A stretch of 64,000 nucleotides of DNA, from assembly GCF_028858725.1 (NCBI RefSeq), contig NC_084790.1, positions 34,017,031 to 34,081,030 of the forward strand, given 5' to 3'. The notes under the pieces are model-generated. The model did not search any database. It was given only the letters and a program-made list of their open reading frames with translations, and was not told the origin of the DNA. Shown here piece by piece: positions 7,430 to 41,387 of the stretch (position 1 is its first letter; every line of letters begins with the position of its first letter). The stretch is from Colius striatus. Lineage: Eukaryota; Chordata; Aves; Coliiformes; Coliidae. The position numbers and the translations under genes were made by a program.

Positions 7430-8117
7430 ATTAAGCTAATAACTTTCAGCTGCATCCCCATTTCCTCCAATATTTTCTGATACTTTTCTCATCTAATTGT
7501 TCCTGCAAGTTACTGGTTATATTTGAGATGTGGATGCAGCGGTGTTCTTCGTCTACTTTAAGATATCCACATACTCCTTGTTCTTTCACTCATAGCAAAT
7601 CTAAAGCTAGTCTACTTTATAGTCTCATTTTAGTATTAACTTAGACTTATTTCTTAATAATTTGGAATCCTTTTTGAGTGGCTCTTGACAAAGTTTCTAC
7701 TTGCCAAATTAAATTTGCTATCAATACTTGATTTTCTAAAACCATTAGCCCTGGTAATAGGAAACTCTGAAGTCTCCAACTAGGTTACACTGCTGCAGAA
7801 GGCCCTGTCCAAGTATCAGGGTCTTTCTTAGTTTTATTATCTATTTTAATTTGTCCTAAATATCAGGCCTAGATTGGACTCCTTTTCCATGTAAGACATA
7901 GGATCAATAATCCTTATGTTGCTTATCTAGTTATTGTGCTAATCTGCAGTAAGATAGTCCAATATACACCTGATATGACCCATGTCATGTAACCTGGGTA
8001 TGGAATTTCTAGTTCGTAATCTCTATTTGAGTTTTTTATTTCTTGCAATATTCCATCATCCAACAAAGTAAAATTTAGGATTGATGTTTTACTATGATTT
8101 AAGGCAGTGAGGCACAT
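7430..8117 (-). pseudogene. ERV-0 envelope remnant (TM subunit)
   Basis: On the minus strand the frame at 8117-7923 looks like the end of an envelope surface or early TM region. Further left (about 7680-7480), partly in other frames, lie the TM hallmarks: a heptad-like ALDLLL stretch followed by a GVCGYLKV cysteine motif and CIHISN. The cysteine spacing is C-x9-(R)C, like the C-x9-CC of ERV-A; the first Cys of the usual CC pair is changed to Arg. There are several stops and frame changes, and no membrane span remains intact. The retroviral origin of 7430-7700 is fairly clear; the 7923-8117 part is inference. Confidence 0.55.
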
Positions 8118-8911: not shown

Positions 8912-9906
8912 TGTCATGGTTTAGCAAGGAGCAGCTTTTTCTTGGTAACAGGGGGAGTGGGCTGCAGTGAAGACCCGGTAAAGTTTGTGGACTCTCCCCT
9001 GGCTCCTGGGTTCACACCCACCTCCGGCCCGGCTGGGCCAATCTGGCGCCTCTGTGATCACTATTGAGGGACAAGAAATTGAAGCGCTAGCAGGAGGTGT
9101 AAGAGTGATACAAGATGGAGGCAACCACATGGACCCAACAGTCAGAGAAGGAGGCAGTAAGGAGCAGCACCAGACCAGAGACCCCTCTGCAAGTCGTGGT
9201 GAGAATGCAGGCTGTACCCCTACAACCCATGCAGGGCAATGGCAGGACTGAGAGCCACCAGCAGCTCCATGTTAGTGCACCTAGACAGGCGAGGGACTGT
9301 GTGAGGAGGCGGCCATGGCCCAGGCCGTGCTGGAGAGCCTGCACGCCGCAGAGCAGCCCCACACGAGAGACAGAGAGGAGCTGCAGCCTTTGGGATAAAT
9401 GCACATTGGAGCCGCCTGTGCAGGGCTGCCATGTGTGTGAGGTACCTTGTGGAGGTGCAGAGAGGACTGGTGTGGAGCCCACCTGTCCTGAGGAAGGACA
9501 AACAGCAGAAGCTATCAGGAACAGACTGACTGAAACCCCCACTCCCTGCCCCCCTGGGCTGTTCAGAGGGGGAGGAGGTAAAAACACCGGGATCAGGGCT
9601 CTGAGCCCGGGAAAAGGGGAGGGGTGGGAAGAAGGTGTTCTTAAAGGGCTGGTCAGACTCTTCGTCATTGTACTACTCTGTGTTGTTTTACTTTGGTTAT
9701 GTTTTGGGGTTTTATGGTTAGGCTTTAGTTGGTGTTTCATGAAATTATTTTCTGTTTTCTTCCCCAAGCCAAGTAGCCTGGTCTGTTTTGTCTGGGACCA
9801 TAAATGGCAATTGAGCTCTCCCTGCCCTTTGACAATTCTCAGGTCTTTGGTACTTGAGGCTAATCTTTTGTGGTCTTTTGTTCCCTGATGGGCCTAAACC
9901 AGGACA
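8912..9906 (+). mobile_element. Solo LTR, 995 bp, family L1 of this window, inserted in ERV-0
   Basis: It starts TGTCATGGTTTAGCAAGGAG and ends GGGCCTAAACCAGGACA. It is flanked by a perfect 5-bp duplication ACTCT (8907-8911 and 9907-9911). No internal genes are attached. It interrupts the old minus-strand provirus ERV-0 between RT and RNase H, so it is younger than ERV-0. It carries the longest copy of the LTR-internal open frame (9115-9888, 257 codons), discussed under findings. Confidence 0.94.
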
Positions 9907-12150: not shown

Positions 12151-12514
12151 GTGAGGGGGCTGTTCCCAAAGTTGCTCCAATGTCTTGAGGAAGAGCCCTC
12201 AAGGCTTTTCCTTACTAGGACAACAATTAAAAGCAGATAAGAAAGATGCTGGTGTGTCTTCTGTGAGGGAGGGGCACACCATCCTCCAACACTCTCTCAG
12301 ACCTGCATACATTAGTCAGTAGCCAGCATGTCTGCTTCCTCAGCTCTTCTCCTGATTCTTTTGCTTCCAATGTTTCACATTTTGACTGGAAAAAAGGGAC
12401 AAATCTTCCCCTCTTCTCCAGTTTGAGATGCAGTCAGTTTCTTCAGTTTCTTTTTCTTCTTTACTCTTCCATTACTTAACCTTATTTAACTGATTTCCTT
12501 TAGTCTTGCAGCTT

Positions 12515-13018
12515 TGTTAGCATTACTGTATATGGAAAGTTAGAAGTAGTTAGGCTAAGGTCTGTATCGAGGCCTAGTGAGCAGTGTGGGATGTTGATGT
12601 AACCTAGCAGTCTAGGGAACTAGTGGGGCATGCTGAGCTTGTGCATTCTTGCTTAAACAAAGCAAAGAGATTAGTGAAGAATACTGAAGGCTGAATCTTG
12701 TTTTTCTCAAAGAAATCGTTATCTCGAATGTTTACCTGTTTGTTATCTATGGAAATTTCTTGTTGTGGATTCAGATAAGCATAGTCTCAAGTAACTACAT
12801 GAAAGAGCACAACATAATCCTAAAGTCTAAGAAAACTGGTAAACATCACGGGGACCTGATGAAGTAATCATTTGTGGAAAGTATATAAACTCTGTGAAAT
12901 TTTTTGTTAATGGGGGCTCTGACTTTGGACACTAGTCCTCAGGTCCCTAGGGCCCTCAATAAAGCACCGCATAAAACGACCTCGGTTGTTTTGTGTTTTC
13001 CTTCGGGAACGGGCAGCA
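12515..13018 (+). repeat. ERV-A 5' LTR
   Basis: The LTR starts TGTTAGCATTACTG and ends GGGCAGCA. It carries a TATA box (GTATATAAAC at 12881) and a polyadenylation signal AATAAA at 12958-12963, which defines U3-R-U5. It differs from the 3' LTR at about four positions (G/A, T/C, A/G, G/C). Confidence 0.93.
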
Positions 13019-13438: not shown

Positions 13439-14343
13439 ATGATGCCGCTTAAAACTTTTAAGCCGTTAGTTCAGTCTAATAGTAAAATCCCAGGAAACAC
13501 CCCATTAGGATGTTTGCTGGGAAGATGGAGGAGTGCTGGATTTTATCAGGATTTGAATAAGGGTAAAACGATAAACTATTGTAATCATTGGTGGCCTTTA
13601 TATGAGTCAGAAGGGGGACCTGCGTGGCCCCTAAACGGTACGGTCGATCCGGGTATTATATCGCCTTTGATACAGTATTTACGGGACAATGAGAAATGGG
13701 GATGAGATCCCGTATTTGGATTTGTTTTATTATTTAGGGCGAAAACTGGATTGGCAGAAGGAATGTGGTATTTTAGTTTTGGAAACAAAGGAATTAGGGT
13801 GTAGTGAATGTAAGAAGAGATCTATGTGTGTTAAGTGTTTAGCTGCCTCCTCTGGTCCAGAGGAAGATTTATCGTTATTAGTTGCTCATAGTGGACAGGG
13901 TCCCTCTGCTCCACCCTATGTTCCACCTCAGATGGAACAGGATAGTGAGGACGATGATAATGAGGAGGAAGAAGAGGATGAAGATGAGGACACCAGGAAC
14001 TTGGATAAAATGTTAGAAGTTGCGTGGAAGGTTTATAATAGTAGGGGAAAAAGAATCAGCTAAGCGGCAACAAGCAGGTATATTGGCTGTAATTCAACAA
14101 TTAGGAGGACAAAGGGGCCGAGGTCCTGGTAGGGGAGGCTCTGCCCAAGGAAGAGGTGGTTATGGTCAGGGAAGAGGGGGATTTCGAATGGGAAACCTTA
14201 ACCAAGGAAAGCTAGGTTCTAATCAGTGTGCTTTTTGTCGACAGATAGGACATTGGAAAAATGAATGTCCTGTGAAAAATGGAATGGGGGGTGGCGCCGG
14301 GACAATGGGTAGTTATCCTATGCCTCAGGCAGATGTCGCCTAA
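13439..14343 (+). pseudogene. ERV-A gag, frameshifted and lacking most of capsid
   Basis: Gag pieces lie in three frames. Frame 13439-13705 starts MMPLKTFKPL and is matrix-like. It passes into frame 13689-14063 after a slip in a G run near 13700. The second part has a cysteine cluster (C-x2-C-x5-C-x2-C at 13800-13838), a late-domain-like APPYVPP, and a long Asp/Glu run. It continues directly into LEVAWKVYNSR, which looks like the end of a capsid domain, so roughly the whole capsid is missing. After another slip near 14050 the last frame runs to 14343 with an RGG-rich stretch and one CCHC knuckle (14227-14268, CAFCRQIGHWKNEC). It ends at TAA 14341. The product could not build a particle by itself. 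Confidence 0.8.
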
Positions 14344-14379: not shown

Positions 14380-14949
14380 CTAGAGCAAGGGTTAAAGGTA
14401 AGGTTAGAAATAAATGGTAAAGAACAGGAATTCACAGTTGATACAGGAGCTACTTATTCAGTTCTCAACAAAAGACTGGGAACAATAAGTGATACCACCG
14501 TACAGGTGGTAGGGGCTATGGGTCAGCTGGAAGAAAGACCATTTTTGCAGCCTCTAAATTTGAAATTTGGGGGAAAGGAATTGGATCATCAATTTTTTTA
14601 TATGCCCAATTGTCCCAAGCCCCTGTTTGGAAGGGATTTATTGTCTTTGTTAAACGTGAAAATAATATTTGAAAATGGGAGAGTAAAATTGGAGATTCCA
14701 AATGAAGAAATTGGGAAAATTTTTGTAATAAAGGAAATAGAACCTACTCCCATTCCAGAAGAAATAGATCAGGCAGTTGTACCCTGGGTATGGGAAACAG
14801 GGACCCCAGGAAAGTCAAAAGCTGCCCAGCCTGTTGTTGTAGAACAGGAGAAAAAAAAAAAAGAAAGAAAAAAAAAAAAGGAGCCCAGCCGGTTAGGGTT
14901 AGACAATATCCAATTAAGTTGGAGGCTAGGAAAGGAGTGGCTCCACTGA
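14380..14949 (+). pseudogene. ERV-A protease region (pro)
   Basis: A retropepsin-like domain lies in the same frame as the end of gag, separated from it by TAA 14341 and TGA 14377. The active-site motif VDTGATYS is intact at 14437 onward. The second conserved block reads KPLFGRDLLSLL near 14625. The frame runs on into a lysine-rich A tract (14850-14880) where it loses register with the RT frame. A same-frame gag stop before pro fits the gammaretroviral arrangement, but this copy has two stops. Confidence 0.8.
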
Positions 14950-17932
14950 TAACCCAATTTGTGATTCAAGGAATTTTACAGGAATGTGAATCTGAGTATA
15001 ACACTCCTATTTTTCCTGTAAGTAAGCCTAATGGTAAATATAGGCTAGTGCAAGATTTAAGGGCCATAAATGAAATTGTAAAGGACATTCACCCAGTGGT
15101 TGCTAACCCTTATACTCTGTTAACATCTGTGTTGGAAAGGTTTAAATGGTTGACAGTAATTGATTTGAAAGATGCCTTCTTCTGCATCCCGCTGGCATTA
15201 CCAAGTAGGAAGTATTTTGCATTTGAATGGGAAGATCCAAGTTCAGGAAGGAAGAAACAACTGACATGGACACGGCTTCCGCAGGGTTTCAAAAACAGCC
15301 CCACTATTTTTGGAAATCAATTAGCCAAGGAGTTGGAGGAATGGAAGACCGAACAGGTAAGAGAATCTCCATTCTCTTATGTGATTTTGCAGTATGTGGA
15401 TGATATTCTGTTGGCAACTGAGGAAAAGGAAGTTTGCCTGAAGCTTACAATTGCCTTACTGAATATGCTGGGACAAGCAGGATATCGAGTATCTAAGGAA
15501 AAGGCCCAGCTCCTCAAAGAGAGTGTTCTTTATTTGGGATGTGAATTAATGCAAGGTCAGAGACGATTGGGCACAAACAGAATTGAGGCAATATGTGCCA
15601 TACCCCTTCCAAGGAATCATCAGGAACTGAGATCATTTTTAGGAATGACTGGTTGATGTAGACTGTGGATTCTAAATTTTGGATTGTTAGCCAAACCCTT
15701 GTATGAGGCTTTGAAGAAGCCCCAATTGGAATGGAGTCCACAAAGGAAAAGAGCCTTTCAGGAGCTAAAACAAGCTCTGAAAGAAGCGCCTGCCTTAGGC
15801 TTGCCGGACTTAAATAAGGATTTTCAGCTTTATGTAAATGAAAGGCAGAATCTGGCTCTGGGAGTGTTGACCCAGAAAATAGGGTCATGGAAACGCCCAG
15901 TGGGATATTTTTCAAAACAACTGGACAATGTTAGTGCTGGTTGGCCGTCATGCTTGAGGGCAGTTACGGCCACAGTGATCCTCATACAGGAAGCCCGAAA
16001 ACTGACTTTGGGAAGGAAAATGGAGGTCTTTGTGCCCCATATGGTCTTGGCTGTCCTGGAACAAAAGGGGGGTCACTGGTTATCATCCAGCAGAATGTTA
16101 CAATATCAAGCTATATTAAGAGAACAAGATGATGTGGAATTTAAGATAACTAACCATATCAACCCAGCAGAATTTCTTCACAGCAAACAGGAAGAAGGGG
16201 AGCTGGTTCATGATTGTGTAGAAACAATTGAACAGGTGTATGCGAGCCGAGCAGACCTAAAGGACACACCGTTAGAAGATTCAGATTGGGATCTCTTTAC
16301 CGATGGATCCAGCTTTGTGGAAAATGGAACCAGGTATGCGGGATATGCAGTGGTCACAGCTGCACAAGTGATTGAAGCAAAGGCTTTAGCCCCTGGGACA
16401 TCTGCTCAAAAGGCAGAGATAATTGGACTTACCAGGGCATTAATTTTGAGTACTGGAAAAAAGGTAAATGTATGGACTGACTCGAAATATGCCTTTGGAG
16501 TTGTACATGTTCATGGTGCCTTGTGGAAGGAACGGGGACTGTTAAACTCACAAGGGCCTATGATAAAACATAGATCGGAAGTTCTCGCCCTGTTGGATGC
16601 GGTACATAAACCAGAAAAGGTAGCAGTAATGCACATCAGGGGACATCGTAAAGAAGAAGGAAAGATATATCGAGGGAATGAACTAGCAGACATCACTGCT
16701 AAAGAAGCTGCTCGACAGGTTTGGACTCAGATGGCTTTAATACCAACCAAGGTGAGCCCTGTTTCTTGTTATATGATTCGGGGACCGAGCTATTCTGCTG
16801 ATGATGAGAAATTGGCGACATATCTAAAGGCCCAGAAGAATGCAATTGGATGGTATGTAACGACAATGGGACAAGTGGTGGTGCCCAAAAATGTTATGAA
16901 GTCCATATTAGAGACTGAACACAATAAATGCCATTGGGGAGCAGAGGTGTTGGTAAAATTTTTGAAAAAGGAAATAATTTCCAACCAAATGTTAATGCTG
17001 GCGAAAAGGGTGAATGCCATGTGCCCAGTTTGTTTAAAGAATAATCCTATTGTAAGGAAATAGGTGCAGTTGGGAAAATTACAAATAGGACCAGAGCCTG
17101 GAGATTATTGGCAGGTTGACTTTTCAGATCTTCCAAGGGCTCAGGGACTTAAATACCTGTTGGTGTATGTGTGCACCTTTTCGGGGTGGCCAGAAGCCTT
17201 CCCTTGTGGAACAAACCAAGCAAAGGAAGTGGTGAAAACATTGTTGAAAGAAATAATACCTAGATTTGGAGTACCACTGGGATTATCATCAGATAGAGGC
17301 CCACATTTTGTGGCAGGGATAGTTCAGGAGGTGGCTAGGACGTTAGACATTACCTGGAATTTACACACTCCATGGAGACCCCAGTCTAGTGGTCAAGTAG
17401 AAAGGATGAATCAAACATTGAAAAATCAGATCAAAAAGATATGTCAGGAAGCCAAACTTCAGTGGCCCCAAGCTTTGCCGTTAGTGTTACTTAGGATTAG
17501 GATAAAACCTAGGGAAAGGATAGGAGTAGGTGCGTACGAGATACTGTACGGCAAGCCTTATCATGCCACCGTGTTAAAAGGAGACCCGCATGTATTGGGA
17601 GACCAGGTGATTTTAACTATGTTATGTTGCTCAATAGAGTTCTCAACGCCTTACGGGGTGCCCTTCAATGGAATTGGCTGCTCCTGCTGGAAAATCCAGT
17701 GCATGATATTCAACCGGGAGATCAGGTCTATGTGAAGAATTGGTTCACAGACTCACTGAGAGAGACATGGGACGGTCCCCATCAAGTGATCTTGACAACT
17801 TTCACAGCCATAAAGGTAGTGGGAATCGACGCTTGGATCCACTACACTCGAGTCAAGAAGGTTCCAACCGAATGGGAAACCCAAGTGGTATCCCCCAGTC
17901 GAATGATATTTCGAGCCAAACAGCATTCTTAA
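14883..17932 (+). pseudogene. ERV-A pol: RT, RNase H and integrase, interrupted
   Basis: RT (from about 14883) has VIDLKDAFF, LPQGFKNSP and the active site YVDD at 15393-15404. TGA 15654 interrupts the thumb region, after which the frame continues from 15684. RNase H begins with the TDGSS block (first catalytic Asp 16302), followed by the AEI block and TDSKYA, and all acidic residues look present. The integrase has a His-His-Cys-Cys finger (about 16919-17034), then TAG 17061, then the catalytic core in the same frame: Asp 17118, Asp 17292, Glu 17400. Near 17600 the frame shifts; the C-terminal SH3-like part (PGDQVYVKNW, WDGPHQVIL) is in frame 17624-17932. The enzyme fragments are clear; the polyprotein is not intact. 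Confidence 0.9.
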
Positions 17933-17997
17933 CTGTTGTACTGTTGATATTATTGAAAATGGTATCGGTCAATGGATTTGTATTTGTCACTGTTACA

Positions 17998-18300
17998 GAG
18001 CCTGTGGTTACTGTTATGGAAGGGATGGATGTCAATTTAACCTGTGACATTGCTGATGACCAAGGAGCTGGAGCCGAGGAAATAATTGCGATTTGGAAAC
18101 AAGGACAAACCAGATTGACTGCAAGTATTGTTACTGTTTGGAATAAGGATACCCAAAAAAGGAAGTGTTACCTTGCAATTGACTAATTTAACGTTAGGAG
18201 AAGCAGGAGTATACATGTGTTTGGTGTTAATTCGGGAAAATTTTGATTATAAGCGAATAGATTTGAGAGTGGTACCTTGGTCCCCGATTCAGTGGGGAGT
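17998..18300 (+). other. Ig-like domain 1 in ERV-A SU
   Basis: After the signal-like segment the frame reads EPVVTVMEGMDVNLTCDI (Cys 18043), then IAIWKQG (Trp 18094), and, after the frameshift near 18157, VTLQLTNLTLGEAGVYMC (Cys 18218), then a G-strand-like RIDLRVV. The B-strand Cys, C-strand Trp, and the L...(D/E)xGxYxC of strands E-F are the signature of an immunoglobulin V or I set domain. The Cys-Cys distance is about 58 codons. Similarity to a specific host protein is not determined. Confidence 0.75.
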
Positions 18301-18316
18301 AGAAGTAATACCAAAA

Positions 18317-18600
18317 TAGCTTCAATGGATATGTGGGATGGCCCACCCTTGAGGATAAAACTGCACTTTTACTTCACAAAGAGAATGTGAAGCCCCGGTT
18401 CAAGTTAAATGGTGGAAAATGGGACCTCAAGGATTGTGGGACAGGATCGAGCAAGGAATCAGTTGGTGGAATGTGGGGAACAGAGGGATAGGATGGCTGA
18501 ATTATACTCAACCTCTGTTGGGTAAGGTGGATGGACAATATCTATGTGTAGTTGTATGTGGACCCTACTCTAATTATGGAAAAAGAAATGTGCAGGGCCA
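18317..18600 (+). other. Ig-like domain 2 in ERV-A SU
   Basis: The segment has Cys at 18362 (NCTFTS), tandem Trp at 18410-18415 (VKWWKMG), and a final KVDGQYLCVVV with Cys at 18545. That is the DxGxYxC motif with a Cys-Cys distance of 61 codons. Three stops (18317, 18350, 18356) lie at its start. It is the weakest of the three domains in its N-terminal half, but the C-terminal motif is good. Confidence 0.65.
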
Positions 18601-18624
18601 ACCTCATTTGAATCAAGGAATTAG

Positions 18625-18892
18625 GGCCACACAAGGGGTGTATCAGGCCAACGAAGGGAAAATAGTTATTTTAACATGTAAAGTGAATCCCAGAATGAGT
18701 TTTTCAGATTTTGGGTGGCGGTTTGGAGATAGCAGTATACAGCCTGGAAGGAAATATCGGATAGAGAAGAGGTTAGGCGGCACCATAGTATTAATAATAA
18801 ATGACGTACAGTCAGATGATGAAGGGATGTATTGGTGTTGGATAGCCAAAGATGCGTGGTGGGCCCACTCTAGGATGTTAGTATCATTAATT
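18625..18892 (+). other. Ig-like domain 3 in ERV-A SU
   Basis: The best preserved of the three, uninterrupted in one frame: NEGKIVILTCKV (Cys 18677), FGWRFGD (Trp 18716), and IVLIINDVQSDDEGMYWC (Cys 18836), followed by a short G-strand. The Cys-Cys distance is 53 codons, which fits an I/C2-like or short V-type Ig fold. It lies upstream of the SU part that resembles other retroviral envelopes. Confidence 0.75.
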
Positions 18893-20598
18893 AGAGGCAA
18901 ATATAGCCGAAGGAGAATACGGGATCTAGGAAATGGGACAATAAACTTCCATCGAGATGAAGGACAGGAAAACTTAGTGGTCGGGTTGATTAGAGATTTT
19001 GGAATGATTCAGAATGTATCTAAGAGTACAGCATGTTTGCCACTACCTTAGGCTGCAGGTGAACCTATACCCTGGGGAATTATTCCAATAACAACCATGC
19101 CAGAAACCTCTGTTAATTTTACTTGGAACTGCAAGCAAGTATCAATAAAGTATGAAGAGTGGATAAATGGGTGTTTAATAAAGGGGGATTTAACGGAAAA
19201 AGAGTGTAGATCATTGCCGGAGTATTATAGATGGGTTAGAACAGGTCCTTATGGGAGAGGTGGCAATATTAAAGGTCGCTGTACAGTAGATAGTACTCTT
19301 CCAATAATTGGATATTGGTGTAGTAGCACAAAAATAAAAGTTGAAAAGATTAGGAATGAAGAGATCTGCCAGAATGTTACACAACAACAAACTTTCGAGG
19401 ATGAATGGGACACAGTATGGGGACCTGGTTTGTTGGAATTATATAGTTACCTAGGTCCAGTACAATGGTGTATACAATGGACAGGGGAGAAAGATCAGAC
19501 TCACGATGGTGTGATGGCTACATACACTTCCGTGAGACCATCCAGAGATCAGAAAGAAATATGGAACTGTACGAAAGTTTTTACTTGTGACTCTCCAGAG
19601 AGTCAGATAGGTTTAGTCCCTGTTAGAGTTCTGCTGAAATGGGGGTGTGAATGTCGGGGATACAATCATACGATTAAAGACTAAATAAAGGGAGATGTAC
19701 ATGAGAAAGGGATGTATGGAAAAAGGGTCATTAGTTGCAAATCCACTACAATCAGAAGTCCAGGAAACTTAGTTTGGGTTATGGGTCATGGGCAATGGAC
19801 CACCCATTTACCAGTTGATGGTCCAGTAACTCAAATAACATTGGGAGTTCCCACATTATGCCCATTTTGGAGACAATTATAGCTCGGAAGAAAAGGGAAA
19901 TAGGTGATGATATCAAGGTAGAAGATGAGTGGCATGAACCAAGTGATGGAGTAAAATTTGGCTGGGCTTTAGAGTCTTTGTTTGCACAGGTTGCATCTTA
20001 CCGTAATAGGGAAATATTGTATAAGCTACTGGGCCAGACTAAAAGATTAGCAGCAGCCACCAAGAAAGGGTTTAAGGATATGAATTTGCAGCTACAGGCA
20101 ACTAGCAGAATGACTTTGCAGAATAGAATGGCCTTAGATATGTTGCTGCTGTGGGAACATGGGGTCTGTGGTTACCTGAGCAAAAGAATTGATCACTGCT
20201 GTATCCATATTCCAAACATGACAATCGAAGTAGAAAAAGATATTTTAAAATTGGAAAAGGTTGAAACCGAAGCCAAAGAAATTGAAAAAGAAGCTCAACA
20301 TAATTGGATAGGAGCAATATTTGATTCATTGGGGCTCCAGGTCTCTGGGTGGATTTCCTCAGTCATCCAATATATAATTATGTTTGTTATACTATTGATG
20401 ATAATTTATATAGTTTACAAGTGTATTTTAGGAACCATTACCAGAGAAAAGCTCAACACCTGCAGATTAATGAATGCGATGACCAGAAATGGAACTGGAA
20501 ATGGGTCTCCTCCTCCATCATATAAGGAAACCACTACTTGAGACACGGACAATAAAGACAGATGATGTTGAGCATCCTTGCAAGATAGAAGAATGCTC

Positions 20599-20611: not shown

Positions 20612-21115
20612 TGTTAGCATTACTGTATATGGAAAGTTAGAAGTAGTTAGGCTAAGGTCTGTATCGAGGCCTAGTGAGCAGTGTGGGATGTTGATGTAAC
20701 CTAGCAGTCTAGGGAACTAGTGGGGCATGCTGAGCTTGTGCATTCTTGCTTAAACAAAGCAAAGAGATTAGTGAAGAATACTGAAGGCTGAATCTTGTTT
20801 TTCTCAAAGAAATCATTATCTCGAATGTTTACCTGTTTGTTATCTATGGAAATTTCTTGTTGTGGATTCAGATAAGCATAGTCTCAAGTAACTACATGAA
20901 AGAGCACAACATAATCCTAAAGTCTAAGAAAACTGGTAAACATCACGGGGACCTGATGAAGTAATCATTTGTGGAAAGTATATAAACTCTGTGAAATTTT
21001 CTGTTAGTGGGGGCTCTGACTTTGGACACTAGTCCTCAGGTCCCTAGGGCCCTCAATAAAGCACCGCATAAAACGACCTCGGTTGTTTTGTGTTTTCCTT
21101 CCGGAACGGGCAGCA
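20612..21115 (+). repeat. ERV-A 3' LTR
   Basis: 504 bp, colinear with 12515-13018 with about four differences. It ends CAGCA and is followed by the duplication GCTT (21116-21119), then by ERV-0 sequence. Confidence 0.93.
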
Positions 21116-21119
21116 GCTT

Positions 21120-23188: not shown

Positions 23189-24125
23189 TGTCATGGTTTA
23201 TCGAGGAGCAGCTTTTGCTTGGTAACAGGGAGAGCGGGTTGCAGTGAAGACCTGGTAAAGAGTTCTTGGACTCTCCCCCATCCTTGGTTTCAGACCCACC
23301 TCTGGCCTGGCTGGGCCAATCTGGTGCCTCTGCGATCACTATTTAAGGATGGGAGGAGATGTAGGAGTGGTACAAGATGGAGGCGACTACCTAGACCCCA
23401 CAGTTAGAGAAGGAAGAAGGAAGGAGCAGCACCACACCGGAGACCCCTCTCCAAGCCGTGGTGAGAATGCAGGCTGTACTGCAACCCATGCAGGGTGAGT
23501 GAGCCTGGACGGGCGACGGACTGTGTGGGGAGGCGGCCATGGCACAGGCCGTGCTGGAACCTCCGGGCCCAGAGCAGCCCCACACAAGAGGCAGAGAGGA
23601 GCTGCAGCCTTTGGGATAAATGCACATCGGAGCTGCCCATGCAGGGCTGCCGTGTGTGTGAGGTACCCCGTGGAGGTGCAGAGAGGACTGGTGTGGAGCC
23701 CACCTGTCCTGAGGAGAGGCAAACAGCAGGACTCATCAGGAATAGACTGACTGAAACCCCCACTGCCTGCCCCTCCTGGGCCGTTCAGAAGGGGAGGAGG
23801 TAAAAACGACTCGATCAGGACTCTTGAGCCTGGGAAGAGGGGAGGAGTGGGGAGAAGGTGTTCTTAAAGGGCTGGTCAGACTCTTCTTCATTGTACCACT
23901 CTGTGTTGTTTTACTTTGGTTATGTTTTGGGGTTTTATGGTTAGGCTTTAGTTGGTGTTTCATGAAATTATTTTCTGTTTTCTTCCCCAAGCCAAGTAGC
24001 CTGGTCTGTTTTGTCTGGGACCATAAATGGCAATTAAGCTCTCCCTGCCCTTTGGCAGTCCTCAGGTCTTTGGTGCTTGAGGCTAATCGTGGTCTTTTGT
24101 TCCCTGATGGGCCTAAACCGTGGCA
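23189..24125 (+). mobile_element. Solo LTR, 937 bp, family L1 of this window
   Basis: Starts TGTCATGGTTTATCGAGG and ends CCTAAACCGTGGCA. A perfect 5-bp duplication AATTC is at 23184-23188 and 24126-24130. Compared with 8912-9906 it has a deletion near 23490-23500, which breaks the N-terminal half of the internal frame; the rest is open at 23495-23803. Confidence 0.94.
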
Positions 24126-32458: not shown

Positions 32459-33430
32459 ATGTGCACTGAGTCACTGAACGTGACTGAGGATAAAGCAGGA
32501 AATTACTCGGCTGTGAGTATCCCCAGGGCAGATCTGTGGTGGTATTGTGGAGGAAAAATCCTGAGGCCTGTACTCCCTCCAAATTGGAAAGGCACATGTG
32601 CCCTTGTTCAATTGGCTATTCCATTTACCCTGGCATTTGAAAGAGAAACATATATTTCAGGGAAAAGAATGAAAAGAAATCTGGGGGTGTCATTCGATGA
32701 CAGGATCTATACTGATTCAATTGGAGTTCCCAGGAGGGTACCTGATGAATATAAAGCACGAAATCAAATAGCAGCAGGGTTTGAATCCTCTCTGTTTTAG
32801 TGGGTAACAATAAATAAGAATGTGGATTGGATAAACTATATTTATTACAATCAGCAGTGGTTTATAAATTACACCGGAGATGCAATCAGAGGAATCACAG
32901 AACAACTAGATGCAACTAGCAGAATGGCATGGGAGAATAGAATAGTTCTAGATATGATATTGGCAGAAAAAGGAGGGGTCTGTGTAATGTTAGGAGACAA
33001 ATGTTGCACTTTCATACCAAACAATACAGCACCAGATGGAACCGTAACCAGAGCATTACAGGGACTTACCACACGAGCAGAGGAATTGGCTGAGAATTCA
33101 GGGATAGATAACTCTATTACAGGATGCTTGGAATCATGGTTCGGGAAATGGAAAGAAATGGTAATATCTGTGGTTACATCTCTAATAGTAGTTGCAGGGA
33201 TATTAATGGCAGTTGGATGCTGTATAATCCCATGTGTTAGGGGGCTTGTACAAAGATTAATTGAAACTGCGATATCCAAACAAATGCCCTTAGACCCGCC
33301 TCCCTACCATGAGAAAATGTTTCTCCTTAAGGAGCAGGAAGAAGATCAAGAAGAGATAGAATTAAAGAATAACTGTGAAATAATGTTATCTAACCTAGAA
33401 GAGTCACTGCAAAAGGCAACAAATGAATAA
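32459..33430 (+). pseudogene. ERV-B env: end of SU and TM subunit, one in-frame stop
   Basis: One forward frame runs from 32459 to 33430, interrupted only by TAG 32798. The first part holds the end of SU and a basic cleavage site KRMKR near 32665. TM follows with an ATSRM...IVLDMIL helix, a canonical C-x6-CC motif (32981-33007), FIPNNT, a membrane span (about 33165-33240) and an unusually long cytoplasmic tail. The tail has a DPPPYHE motif near 33293-33313 and a Glu-rich end. After the stop, 202 codons are open from ATG 32822. The whole is a truncated envelope; whether the 202-codon part is made is unknown. Confidence 0.82.
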
Positions 33431-39373: not shown

Positions 39374-41081
39374 TCATTCAGCAATGTCTAAAGCCATCTG
39401 GATGGCTTTTACCTCTGCAAACTGGCTCGATTCACCCTCTCCTTCTGCAGCTTCTGAAACTTTGCGTAGGGGGCTCCACACAGCTGCCTTCCACCTCCGA
39501 TGCTTCCCCACAAGACAGGACCCATCGGTGAACAGGGCATACCGCTTCTCATCTCCTGGAAGTTCCTCATATGATGGGGCCTCTTCAGCAAGGGTTGCCT
39601 CCTTTTCTGGTGATATTTCACTGTCTTCACACTCTGGCCAGTTCGTGATCAGTTCCAGAATTCCAGGGCGGCTAGAACTTCCTACACGAGCTCGTTGTGT
39701 GATCAATGCGATCCACTTACTCCATGTAGCATCAGTTGCATGATGTGTGGAGGAGGCCCTCCCTTTGAACATCCAGCCCAGCACTGGCAGTCGGGGTGCT
39801 AGGAGAAGTTGTGTTTCTGTGCTGATCACTTCTGATGCAGCTTGAACCCCTTCATATGCCGCCAGTATCTCCTTCTCAGTTGGAGTGTATCGGGCCTCGG
39901 ATCCTCTGTATCCCCGACTCCAGAATCCAAGGGGTCGGCCTCGACCCTCCCCAGGTGCTCTCTGCCAAAGACTCCAAGTAGGGCCATTCTCCCCAGCTGC
40001 GGTGTAGAGCACATTTTTAACATCTTGTCCTGTCCGGACTGGCCCAAGTGCCATTGCATGAACAATCTCCTGTTTCATTTGTTCAAAACTTTGTTGCTGT
40101 TCAGGACCCCATTCAAAATCATTTTTCTTCCGTGTTCCGTGGTAGAGAGGGCGCACAATCATACTGTAATTTGGAATATGCATCCTCCAAAAACCCACAA
40201 CACCTAGGAAAGCTTGTGTTTCCTTTTTGCTAGTTGGGGGAGACATGGCTGCAATTTTGTTGATCACATCTATTGGGATATGGCAACGTCCATCCTGCCA
40301 TTTCACTCCTAAAAACTGGATCTCCTGCACAGGCCCTCTGACCTTACTTCGTTTAATGGCAAAACCAGCCTTCAGAAGAATTTGAATTATCTTCTTTCCC
40401 TTCTCAAGAACTTCCTCTGCTGAGTCACCCCACACAACAATGTCATCAATGTATTGCAGGTGTTCTGGGGCCTCGCCCTTCTCCAGCGTGGCCTGGATCA
40501 GTCCATGGCAGATGGTGGGGCTGTGTTTCCACCCCTGGGGCAGTCGATTCCAGGTATACTGAACCCCTCTCCAAGTGAAAGCGAACTGGGACCTGCACTC
40601 TACTGCCAAAGGAATTGAGAAGAATGCATTGGCAATATCAATGGTGGCATACCATTTGGCTGCCTTGGACTCCAGTTCATATTGGAGTTCCAGCATGTCC
40701 AGCACAGCTGCGCTCAGTGGCAGCGTGACTTCATTCAGGCCACGATAGTCCACTGTCAGTCTCCACTCTCCGGTAGACTTTCGCACTGGTCATATGGGAC
40801 TGTTAAAGGGTGAGTGGGTTTTGCTGATCACCCCTTGGCTCTCCAGTTGGCGAATCAACTTATGAATGGGAATCACTGAATCTCTGCTGGTGCAATATTG
40901 CCGCCGGTGCACTGTTGTGGTCGCAATTGGCACCCGTTGCTCCTCAACCTTCAGCAAACCCACAACGGAAGGGTCCTCTGAAAGGCCAGGCATGCTGGAT
41001 AGTTGTTCAATTTCCTCTGTCTCCACTGCAGCCACACCAAAGGCCCACCGGTACCCTTTTGGGTCCTTAAAATACCCTCTC
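39374..41081 (-). pseudogene. ERV-C pol: RT and RNase H, two in-frame stops
   Basis: Two open pieces in one frame, 41035-40793 and 40789-39377, are separated by TGA 40790-40792. The first leads into RT with VIPIHKLIRQLESQG; the second has WRLTVDYRGLN, ATIDIANAFFSIPL, RLPQGWKHSP and the active site YIDD (40442-40453). RNase H follows with LFTDGSC (near 39520) and the AEV block. The frame ends at TGA 39374-39376 inside RNase H and resumes in the same frame to the left. The length without stops is typical for an ERV RT-RNase H. Confidence 0.9.
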
Positions 41082-41387
41082 TTAAGGTAGTCTATGCCCA
41101 GGATAACACGGGGCTTCTGGGCCTGTCACAATGGGGTGTTTGTGCCACTCATCTCCAGTTAAACTCACTTCAGCTTCTAACAAGGTTAGCTGTTGAGATC
41201 CCCCTGTCACTCCAGAAATACAAACAGATTCTGTCCCTTTACAACTTGATGGCATCAGAGTGCATTGTGCTCCAGTATCCACTAAAGCCTTGTACTCTTG
41301 TGGGTTTGATGTGCCAGGCCATCGGATCCACACCGTCCAATAAACTCGGTTGTCCCTCTCCTCCACCTGGCTGGAGGCAGGGCCTCC
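41082..41387 (-). pseudogene. ERV-C protease region
   Basis: It continues in the gag frame directly after the gag stop TAG (41388-41390), suggesting expression by stop-codon readthrough in the parent element. It contains VDTGAQCTLMPSS, the retropepsin active site, near 41290. The C-terminal protease block is reached only after a frame change around 41105-41125, after which the RT frame continues, so the copy is broken here. Confidence 0.8.

Follow-up and report, generated by a model that had tools for sequence, protein, structure and literature searches.

Envelope proteins (Env) of the gammaretrovirus type usually carry a CXXC motif in the surface subunit (SU) and a C-X6-CC motif in the transmembrane subunit (TM), and their receptor-binding domain is a single one, located N-terminally in SU. 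In foamy viruses, the Env leader peptide makes up a third, N-terminal subunit that is set off by a furin-type site and is not an immunoglobulin (Ig) domain. No retroviral envelope bearing canonical Ig-superfamily (IgSF) domains in a tandem array is known to us. Here we describe such an array in the env gene of an endogenous provirus of the mousebird Colius striatus. The provirus lies in a 64,000-nucleotide stretch of contig NC_084790.1 (positions 34,017,031 to 34,081,030, forward strand), which is called the window below and to which all coordinates refer.

The initial annotation of the window held that an Ig pattern is atypical of gammaretroviral SU and, without a literature search, knew of no described precedent. 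The former holds for a tandem canonical array. The receptor-binding domains of murine leukemia virus (MLV), feline leukemia virus (FeLV), and EnvP(b)1, however, have IgV topology according to PMC12051499, and an Ig fold in gammaretroviral SU is therefore not new; the canonical tandem IgSF array is. The latter did not hold up. A related avipoxvirus protein also has three Ig domains, and PMC4299795 describes a crocodilian element, CrocERV31, in which nectin-3 host mRNA with three Ig-like domains under purifying selection replaces env. Both CrocERV31 and the element studied here are retroviral elements with three Ig-like domains under purifying selection. Unlike CrocERV31, where host mRNA stands in place of env, the present array is in frame with SU and TM, is found in many birds, and has no host parent that we could find. 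In PMC11287128, "Ig-like domain" is only the label of a predicted partner protein. Full-text searches of open-licence PMC papers, a scope outside which subscription papers and preprints lie, listed no retroviral env joined to an Ig array.

Results

The provirus is one of a gammaretrovirus-like family of bird endogenous retroviruses, in which Env begins with a signal peptide and one to three Ig domains (D1 to D3). A linker with an Arg-X-X-Arg (RxxR) motif leads into the conserved SU core, after which come the hypervariable region, the C-terminal part of SU, and TM. The parts located in the window all lie on the plus strand. The start codon and a signal-peptide-like segment occupy 17872..17976, with residue 1 of the database relative P0003 aligning at 17872, and env from this start overlaps the 3' end of pol. 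D1, a B7-like V-set domain, spans 17977..18274 by profile match in two frames (17977-18180 and 18155-18274). D2 spans 18316..18604, also in two frames (18316-18384 and 18359-18604; profile E 1.6e-28 for the main piece), and D3, an I/V-set domain, is complete at 18614..18889 (profile E 4e-32). At the junction of Ig head and SU core, the motif R-R-I-R (18911..18922) is a candidate proprotein-convertase site, recognized as a motif. The linker and conserved SU core (18908..19183, with one stop at 19049) and the C-terminal SU part (19424..19876, in two pieces) were located by profile match, as was TM with its C-X9-CC motif (19948..20484; profile E 1e-99; TLV_coat 27.3 bits, cut-off 22.5). The profiles were made from relatives other than the window and the mousebird protein P0006 and were run on 2045 six-frame pieces of at least 20 residues, among which the best match of the D1-D3 profiles outside env was only E 0.44.

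The three segments are Ig-superfamily domains, for which predicted models give an Ig beta-sandwich. All six cysteine codons named initially (18043/18218, 18362/18545, and 18677/18836) are at exactly those positions. D3, read from the open piece 18359-19048, exceeded the Pfam cut-offs of ig (38.3 bits, cut-off 21.8), Ig_3 (33.3, cut-off 30), and I-set (32.1, cut-off 23.7). The C-terminal half of window D1 alone reached 17.1 bits with V-set, under the cut-off of 26, and the intact D1 of P0003 reached 39.1. An Ig-fold match had been named beforehand as a test of the Ig reading, and it was obtained; the relatives' profiles match all three segments. The predicted model of the window piece has an Ig fold for D3 and strands over D2, and that of the D1-D3 region of P0020 has block means of 70-91, falling below 50 after residue 376. 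The tandem signature inside env is thus real, but it is not one open frame here: D1 and D2 are each split across two reading frames, and SU is interrupted by stops.

Among 24 database relatives scanned with Pfam (P0009, P0011, P0014, and P0023 were left out), an Ig family was above cut-off in 18, one of them the poxvirus protein, and was below cut-off or absent in P0002, P0004, P0010, P0026, P0027, and P0028. D1 was the best Ig stretch in P0003, P0005, P0013, P0015, and P0020, and D2 had no clear Pfam match in the window or the scanned relatives. Invariant positions in the alignments were C23, W40, L68, and C83 of D1 (11 rows), C22, W39, G79, and C83 of D2 (11 rows), and C22, W35, L60, D69, G71, Y73, and C75 of D3 (9 rows). 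By profile-profile comparison, D1 resembles D3 (95.5%) and D2 (92.2%), with only 33.9% between D2 and D3.

Searches of protein databases returned 4, 17, and 24 matches, the latter two including the query, which together made 28 distinct proteins: one poxvirus protein, six contig-derived proteins, and otherwise bird records. The Ig-array Env proteins were found in passerines and a mousebird. Three of them (P0019, P0020, and P0025) have both Ig and TLV_coat above cut-off within one protein, and a predicted Colius striatus protein is 93.75% identical to the window across 496 residues. The host genome (1.21 Gb) gave 288 candidates, 150 of which were scored, and 96 of these, the window counted, cover the 230-residue piece. 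Since many of the 96 are clustered on a few contigs (C166, C26, and C171), they do not amount to 96 independent insertions. Together with the many bird records, these matches bear out the expectation that the segments recur in other proviruses of the family.

Single long open frames with all Env domains are present in the host genome. D1 and D2 are split at identical places in L001-L007, which make up seven of the initial eight loci and include the window as L002, and one of these loci, on another contig, is 99.97% identical to the window across 3690 bases; the frame-broken form of env has itself multiplied, therefore. Scans of viral contigs for relatives of P0003, P0022, A3, and A5 yielded no confirmed locus, and a PHROGs search gave at best E 0.045.

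To follow the array across copies, 20 loci chosen across the match range and eight from the search were read, giving 26 distinct places with the window included (L001 coincides with L026, and L003 with L027). D1-D3 were found by profile at 14 places, several of them broken, and D1 alone at one (L011). Seven places (L009, L010, L014, L015, L016, L023, and L028) are Ig-less, with a signal-peptide-like start directly before the SU core, L014 being an SU-core match only; four (L012, L013, L017, and L018) are degraded. The array comprises three, two, or one Ig domains in the database relatives, the architecture alignment of which left out P0011, a record without SU core. Two Ig-less frames that were read hold SU and TM in one open frame of 523 and 547 residues, and 14 host-genome rows share these open-frame lengths.

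The RxxR motif was found in 24 of 26 relatives (P0011 and P0022 left out) within the 20 residues starting 28 before the SU core, versus 7.8% of the remaining 20-residue stretches in these proteins, a control that is not matched in composition to this basic linker. Counted by distinct place in the host genome, it was present at 13 of 14 Ig-bearing places (12 of 13 three-Ig places with the core read and the sole one-Ig place), and none of the 7 Ig-less places had it. The exceptions (Prinia, Catharus, and L020) still have basic clusters. Ahead of a conserved SU core, the Ig array and RxxR thus come and go jointly, as a cassette. The motif accompanies the Ig head and therefore fits a separation of head from SU.

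At the degraded place L013, positions 1620-2006 on its minus strand hold an SU-core relative. Its short N-terminal stretch, which is not Ig and runs into RKRR, is possibly another type of head.

Four Ig-less rows grouped at 98/98 among Ig-bearing rows in a tree that left out P0004, P0013, P0014, P0016, P0017, P0023, and L022. In a second tree, which had the TM at 32801-33430 of the window as outgroup on a single very long branch, five Ig-less rows (100/99) stood beside mousebird Ig-bearing rows, the fork having 82/78. Approximately unbiased tests rejected neither the Ig-bearing rows as one clade (p-AU 0.111) nor the five rows labeled Ig-less, including the degraded L012, as one clade (p-AU 0.16). 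The trees favor the view that the Ig-less mousebird rows lost the array, and a gain would also be compatible with the p-AU values. Parsimony gave seven changes for D3 (18 rows, P0001 and P0002 left out) and six for D2 (19 rows, P0002 left out); these counts were not relied upon because NCBI gene models, from which broken parts may be missing, make up the majority of the rows.

On sequence, the closest non-retroviral relative found is SWPV1-183 of Shearwaterpox virus, a protein of 332 residues (E 5.5e-85 versus P0015). It shares with the retroviral Ig Env a signal-like start and a homologous D1-D2-D3 array, but it stands alone, ending with the last strand of D3 without SU core or TM. Identity is 50.3% with the Pipra array over 306 columns and 35-50% with eight three-Ig retroviral arrays; seven retroviral arrays are mutually 36-52% identical. 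In the array tree, SWPV1-183 joins suboscine Env at 93/96, 2 of 3 of those rows being D1-only. The tree is unrooted, with one very long row, 81/49 at the next deeper fork, and SWPV1-183 as the sole pox sequence; it left out P0002 and rows under 85 residues, and the SU/TM tree left out P0014 and rows under 150 residues.

In the viral structure library, too, the window piece matches SWPV1-183 best (E 1.7e-17, 39% identity). No retroviral Env is named among the best 50 viral structure-library matches of that piece, where one further down is possible. In PMC5390406, avipoxviruses are described as having many Ig-like genes, and the genome table sets SWPV1-183 opposite the canarypox Ig-like domain protein CNPV081, at 54%; the word "retrovirus" is absent from the main text of that report.

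We estimated dN/dS at loci picked for a single open frame: three for D1-D3, five for D2-D3, six for D1, and eight for the C-terminal SU part with TM. Values are reported for pairs with dS > 0.3, of which those with dS > 1 are saturated. They were 0.13 and 0.15 for D1-D3 (2 of 3 pairs), 0.09-0.20 for D2-D3 (7 of 10), 0.11-0.24 for D1 (9 of 15), and 0.15-0.23 for C-terminal SU with TM (6 of 28 pairs, dS 0.3-1). Close pairs scatter up to 0.69 (dS 0.034). Because these ranges are low and comparable, the array was evidently maintained like the rest of env; during virus divergence, purifying selection held it about as strongly as the other parts.

For the pair L019/L022 (and with L020), dS is about 1.6 in D2-D3, 0.43 in D1, and 0.26 in C-terminal SU with TM, a contrast that suggests recombination among virus lineages within env.

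Between the conserved SU core and the C-terminal part lies a hypervariable stretch of 71-104 residues. Its median identity was 18%, compared with 82% for the SU core, 55% for the C-terminal SU part, and 67% for TM (12 of 16 rows, gaps counted; the other four, including both Ig-less rows, are without a boundary motif). For five D1-D3 proteins, the median was 43% over the Ig array versus 17% over the hypervariable stretch. The initial annotation supposed that the Ig head could change receptor choice, which was not borne out: the most variable part is a separate SU region. Judging from this pattern, the hypervariable stretch looks like an entry-receptor determinant apart from the Ig head. P0010 and P0026 are 87-95% identical in D1, SU core, C-terminal SU part, and TM and 27% identical in the hypervariable stretch, as if that stretch had been exchanged.

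The SU part of P0011, a record beginning within the SU core, gave no match to any solved retroviral SU up to an E of 10. Two unrelated chains aside, the matches of P0011 lie in TM or just before it, and those in TM are to syncytins, MLV p15E, and filovirus GP2. The TM cysteine pattern could be read in the window and in 12 proteins, each time as C-X9-CC, and CXXC was found in none of the 28 database proteins, many of which are partial. The Ig Env is like the gammaretrovirus type (TLV_coat) in its TM family match and in env overlapping the end of pol, and differs in the N-terminal Ig array, the extra RxxR, C-X9-CC, and the lack of a CXXC among the sequences read.

The initial annotation had also proposed host capture of the Ig sequence. 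Because sequence searches reach host IgSF proteins, the array looks captured from an IgSF gene, D1 at least perhaps from one of B7 type; no donor gene was found. Among the best 60 of 901 matches (E 0.01) of the D1 profile to solved structures, CD276 came first (1.9e-24, two stretches), and PD-L2 (1.4e-11) and later PD-L1 (2.9e-9) were the best short single-domain chains. The window D1 half matched PD-L1 first (1.1e-4), with a common DYKRI.L.V end, and P0003 matched CD276, then CEA, then PD-L2. D3 as a single sequence matched pIgR first. Three of the four D1 searches put B7 V domains first, which makes a B7-type origin of D1 a lead. B7 proteins consist of a V domain, then a C-type Ig domain, then a membrane anchor. 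That layout is not seen here, where D1 is followed by D2, D3, and then RxxR and SU, a three-domain array of different make-up. No host IgSF gene was among the 24 database matches (query included), and no single host parent was found.

The remaining anatomy confirms that the segments are part of a provirus, as supposed initially: both long terminal repeats (LTRs) bound the element, and SU and TM follow the Ig array in relatives. The 5' LTR (TG...CA) lies at 12515..13018, flanked by GCTT at 12511-12514, and the 3' LTR at 20612..21115, with GCTT directly 3' at 21116-21119; these ends were picked among several near-equal options that all yield a flank repeat. The LTRs differ by 4 mismatches per about 505 columns. 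A supposed conflict between identical LTRs and broken frames, which arose from 300 bases at a rounded 100%, was dropped on this fuller count.

Between the LTRs and upstream of env, also on the plus strand, lie the end of gag with a zinc knuckle (14017..14340; PF00098 22.1 bits, cut-off 20.8), protease (14380..14946; RVP 40.2 bits), reverse transcriptase (14706..15653; RVT_1 105.8 bits), RNase H with the zinc-binding part of integrase (15657..17060; RNase_H 82 bits, Integrase_H2C2 20.5 bits, below cut-off), and the integrase core (17064..17732; rve 62 bits).

Elsewhere in the window, 32801-33430 encodes the TM of a second gammaretrovirus-like Env, with C-X6-CC, and 7488-8006 on the minus strand is a decayed env relative with about 29-33% identity to family SU/TM parts. 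A pol fragment at 40172-41327, minus strand, is 82% identical to part of the Hirundo protein P0014, a record that joins this pol stretch to an Ig-env start, perhaps by nested insertion or as a gene-model artefact. Direct repeats at 9007-9777 and 23285-24000, 77-97% alike, bracket the provirus.

Discussion

We favor the array as a detachable Ig module that would engage host Ig-type receptors or immunity over its being an entry head, because of the stand-alone pox form, the linked RxxR, the Ig-less envelopes, and the separate hypervariable region of SU; we regard this as having about an even chance of being correct. An Ig array captured from an IgSF gene, with at least D1 of B7 type, would be translated at the head of Env and cut from SU by a furin-like protease in the secretory pathway. 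The released head would be a third Env subunit, shed or loosely held, engaging mainly host cell-surface Ig-family receptors of checkpoint or decoy type, while the SU variable region would select the entry receptor. An avipoxvirus would use the same module as a stand-alone secreted-type protein, most likely derived from a retrovirus. The full proposal, a three-subunit Env whose furin-released head acts as a soluble B7/PD-L-like checkpoint ligand or decoy, in a cassette gained, trimmed, lost, and traded between bird retroviruses and avipoxviruses, is put forward tentatively and is somewhat unlikely to be right in every part. The foamy virus leader peptide is likened to such a head by layout alone, as a third N-terminal subunit set off by a furin-type site; it differs in not being Ig.

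Several observations weigh against this proposal. RxxR is a minimal motif within a basic linker and is lacking in that form from 2 of 26 relatives and 1 of 14 places, and the head might remain attached to SU. The multi-Ig proteins DIP-alpha, CEA, and CEACAM1 rank between CD276 and PD-L2 among the 60 D1 profile matches, and D1 of SWPV1-183 ranks OPCML and NEGR1 (3e-5) over CD276 (1.5e-4), with titin at the top overall. The D3 profile ranks with titin, CEA, and contactin, and the D2 matches are weak (PD-L2 0.009, IL-18R accessory protein 0.024, CD80 0.06). The N-terminal slot is that of the known gammaretroviral receptor-binding domains. Their IgV topology (PMC12051499) matches as well.

Two other readings were considered. 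The array could be an entry receptor-binding head: retained by the virion, it would bind a host Ig-family receptor, and how many domains it has would set its reach. The array is N-terminal to SU in one protein and under purifying selection, and D1 is whole or a remnant in the database proteins that include the N-terminal region, as would be expected of such a head. Ig-less SU and TM nevertheless occur as single open frames in the same genome (the 523- and 547-residue frames and the 14 rows of such lengths), SU has a hypervariable region of its own that differs even among near relatives, and the conserved RxxR would split head from SU, and we consider an entry head a serious but less likely possibility. 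Alternatively, the array could be an ordinary gammaretroviral receptor-binding domain that has diverged without host capture. Besides the shared position and topology, the absence of a solved match for the SU of P0011 leaves such a domain not located elsewhere. Those domains are single, however, and here there are three in tandem, with the high D1-D3 and D1-D2 profile similarity noted above. Through their canonical IgSF motifs, Pfam and PDB sequence searches arrive at host IgSF proteins, and the array is an extra of variable presence, as Ig-less relatives retain a constant SU core. On this comparison of architecture and motifs, ordinary divergence appears very unlikely.

The direction of transfer was most likely from retrovirus to avipoxvirus. 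An avipoxvirus could instead have captured the module and passed it to retroviruses, or both could have taken it from the same host gene. Avipoxviruses have many Ig-like genes, and with SWPV1-183 at only 54% to CNPV081 the pox gene is not new (PMC5390406); the array tree is also unrooted and weak at its deeper fork. Against this, SWPV1-183, the one pox sequence placed, groups with the suboscine Env arrays, and its 50.3% identity is inside the retroviral range, and we consider both of these courses improbable. The broken frames of the window copy, the sole point in favor, could have indicated chance, an assembly artefact, or a lone provirus beside an unrelated host gene. The 96 of 150 scored host-genome matches covering the piece, the relatives that have SU and TM, found across numerous further bird records, and the LTRs bounding the element refute that.

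A soluble head could be tested alone, which makes checkpoint or decoy binding directly testable. If the detachable-module reading is right, it would show concretely how an immune gene of a poxvirus could have arisen from a retrovirus. If the head is an immune module, a retrovirus would have added a second function to its entry protein while keeping entry.
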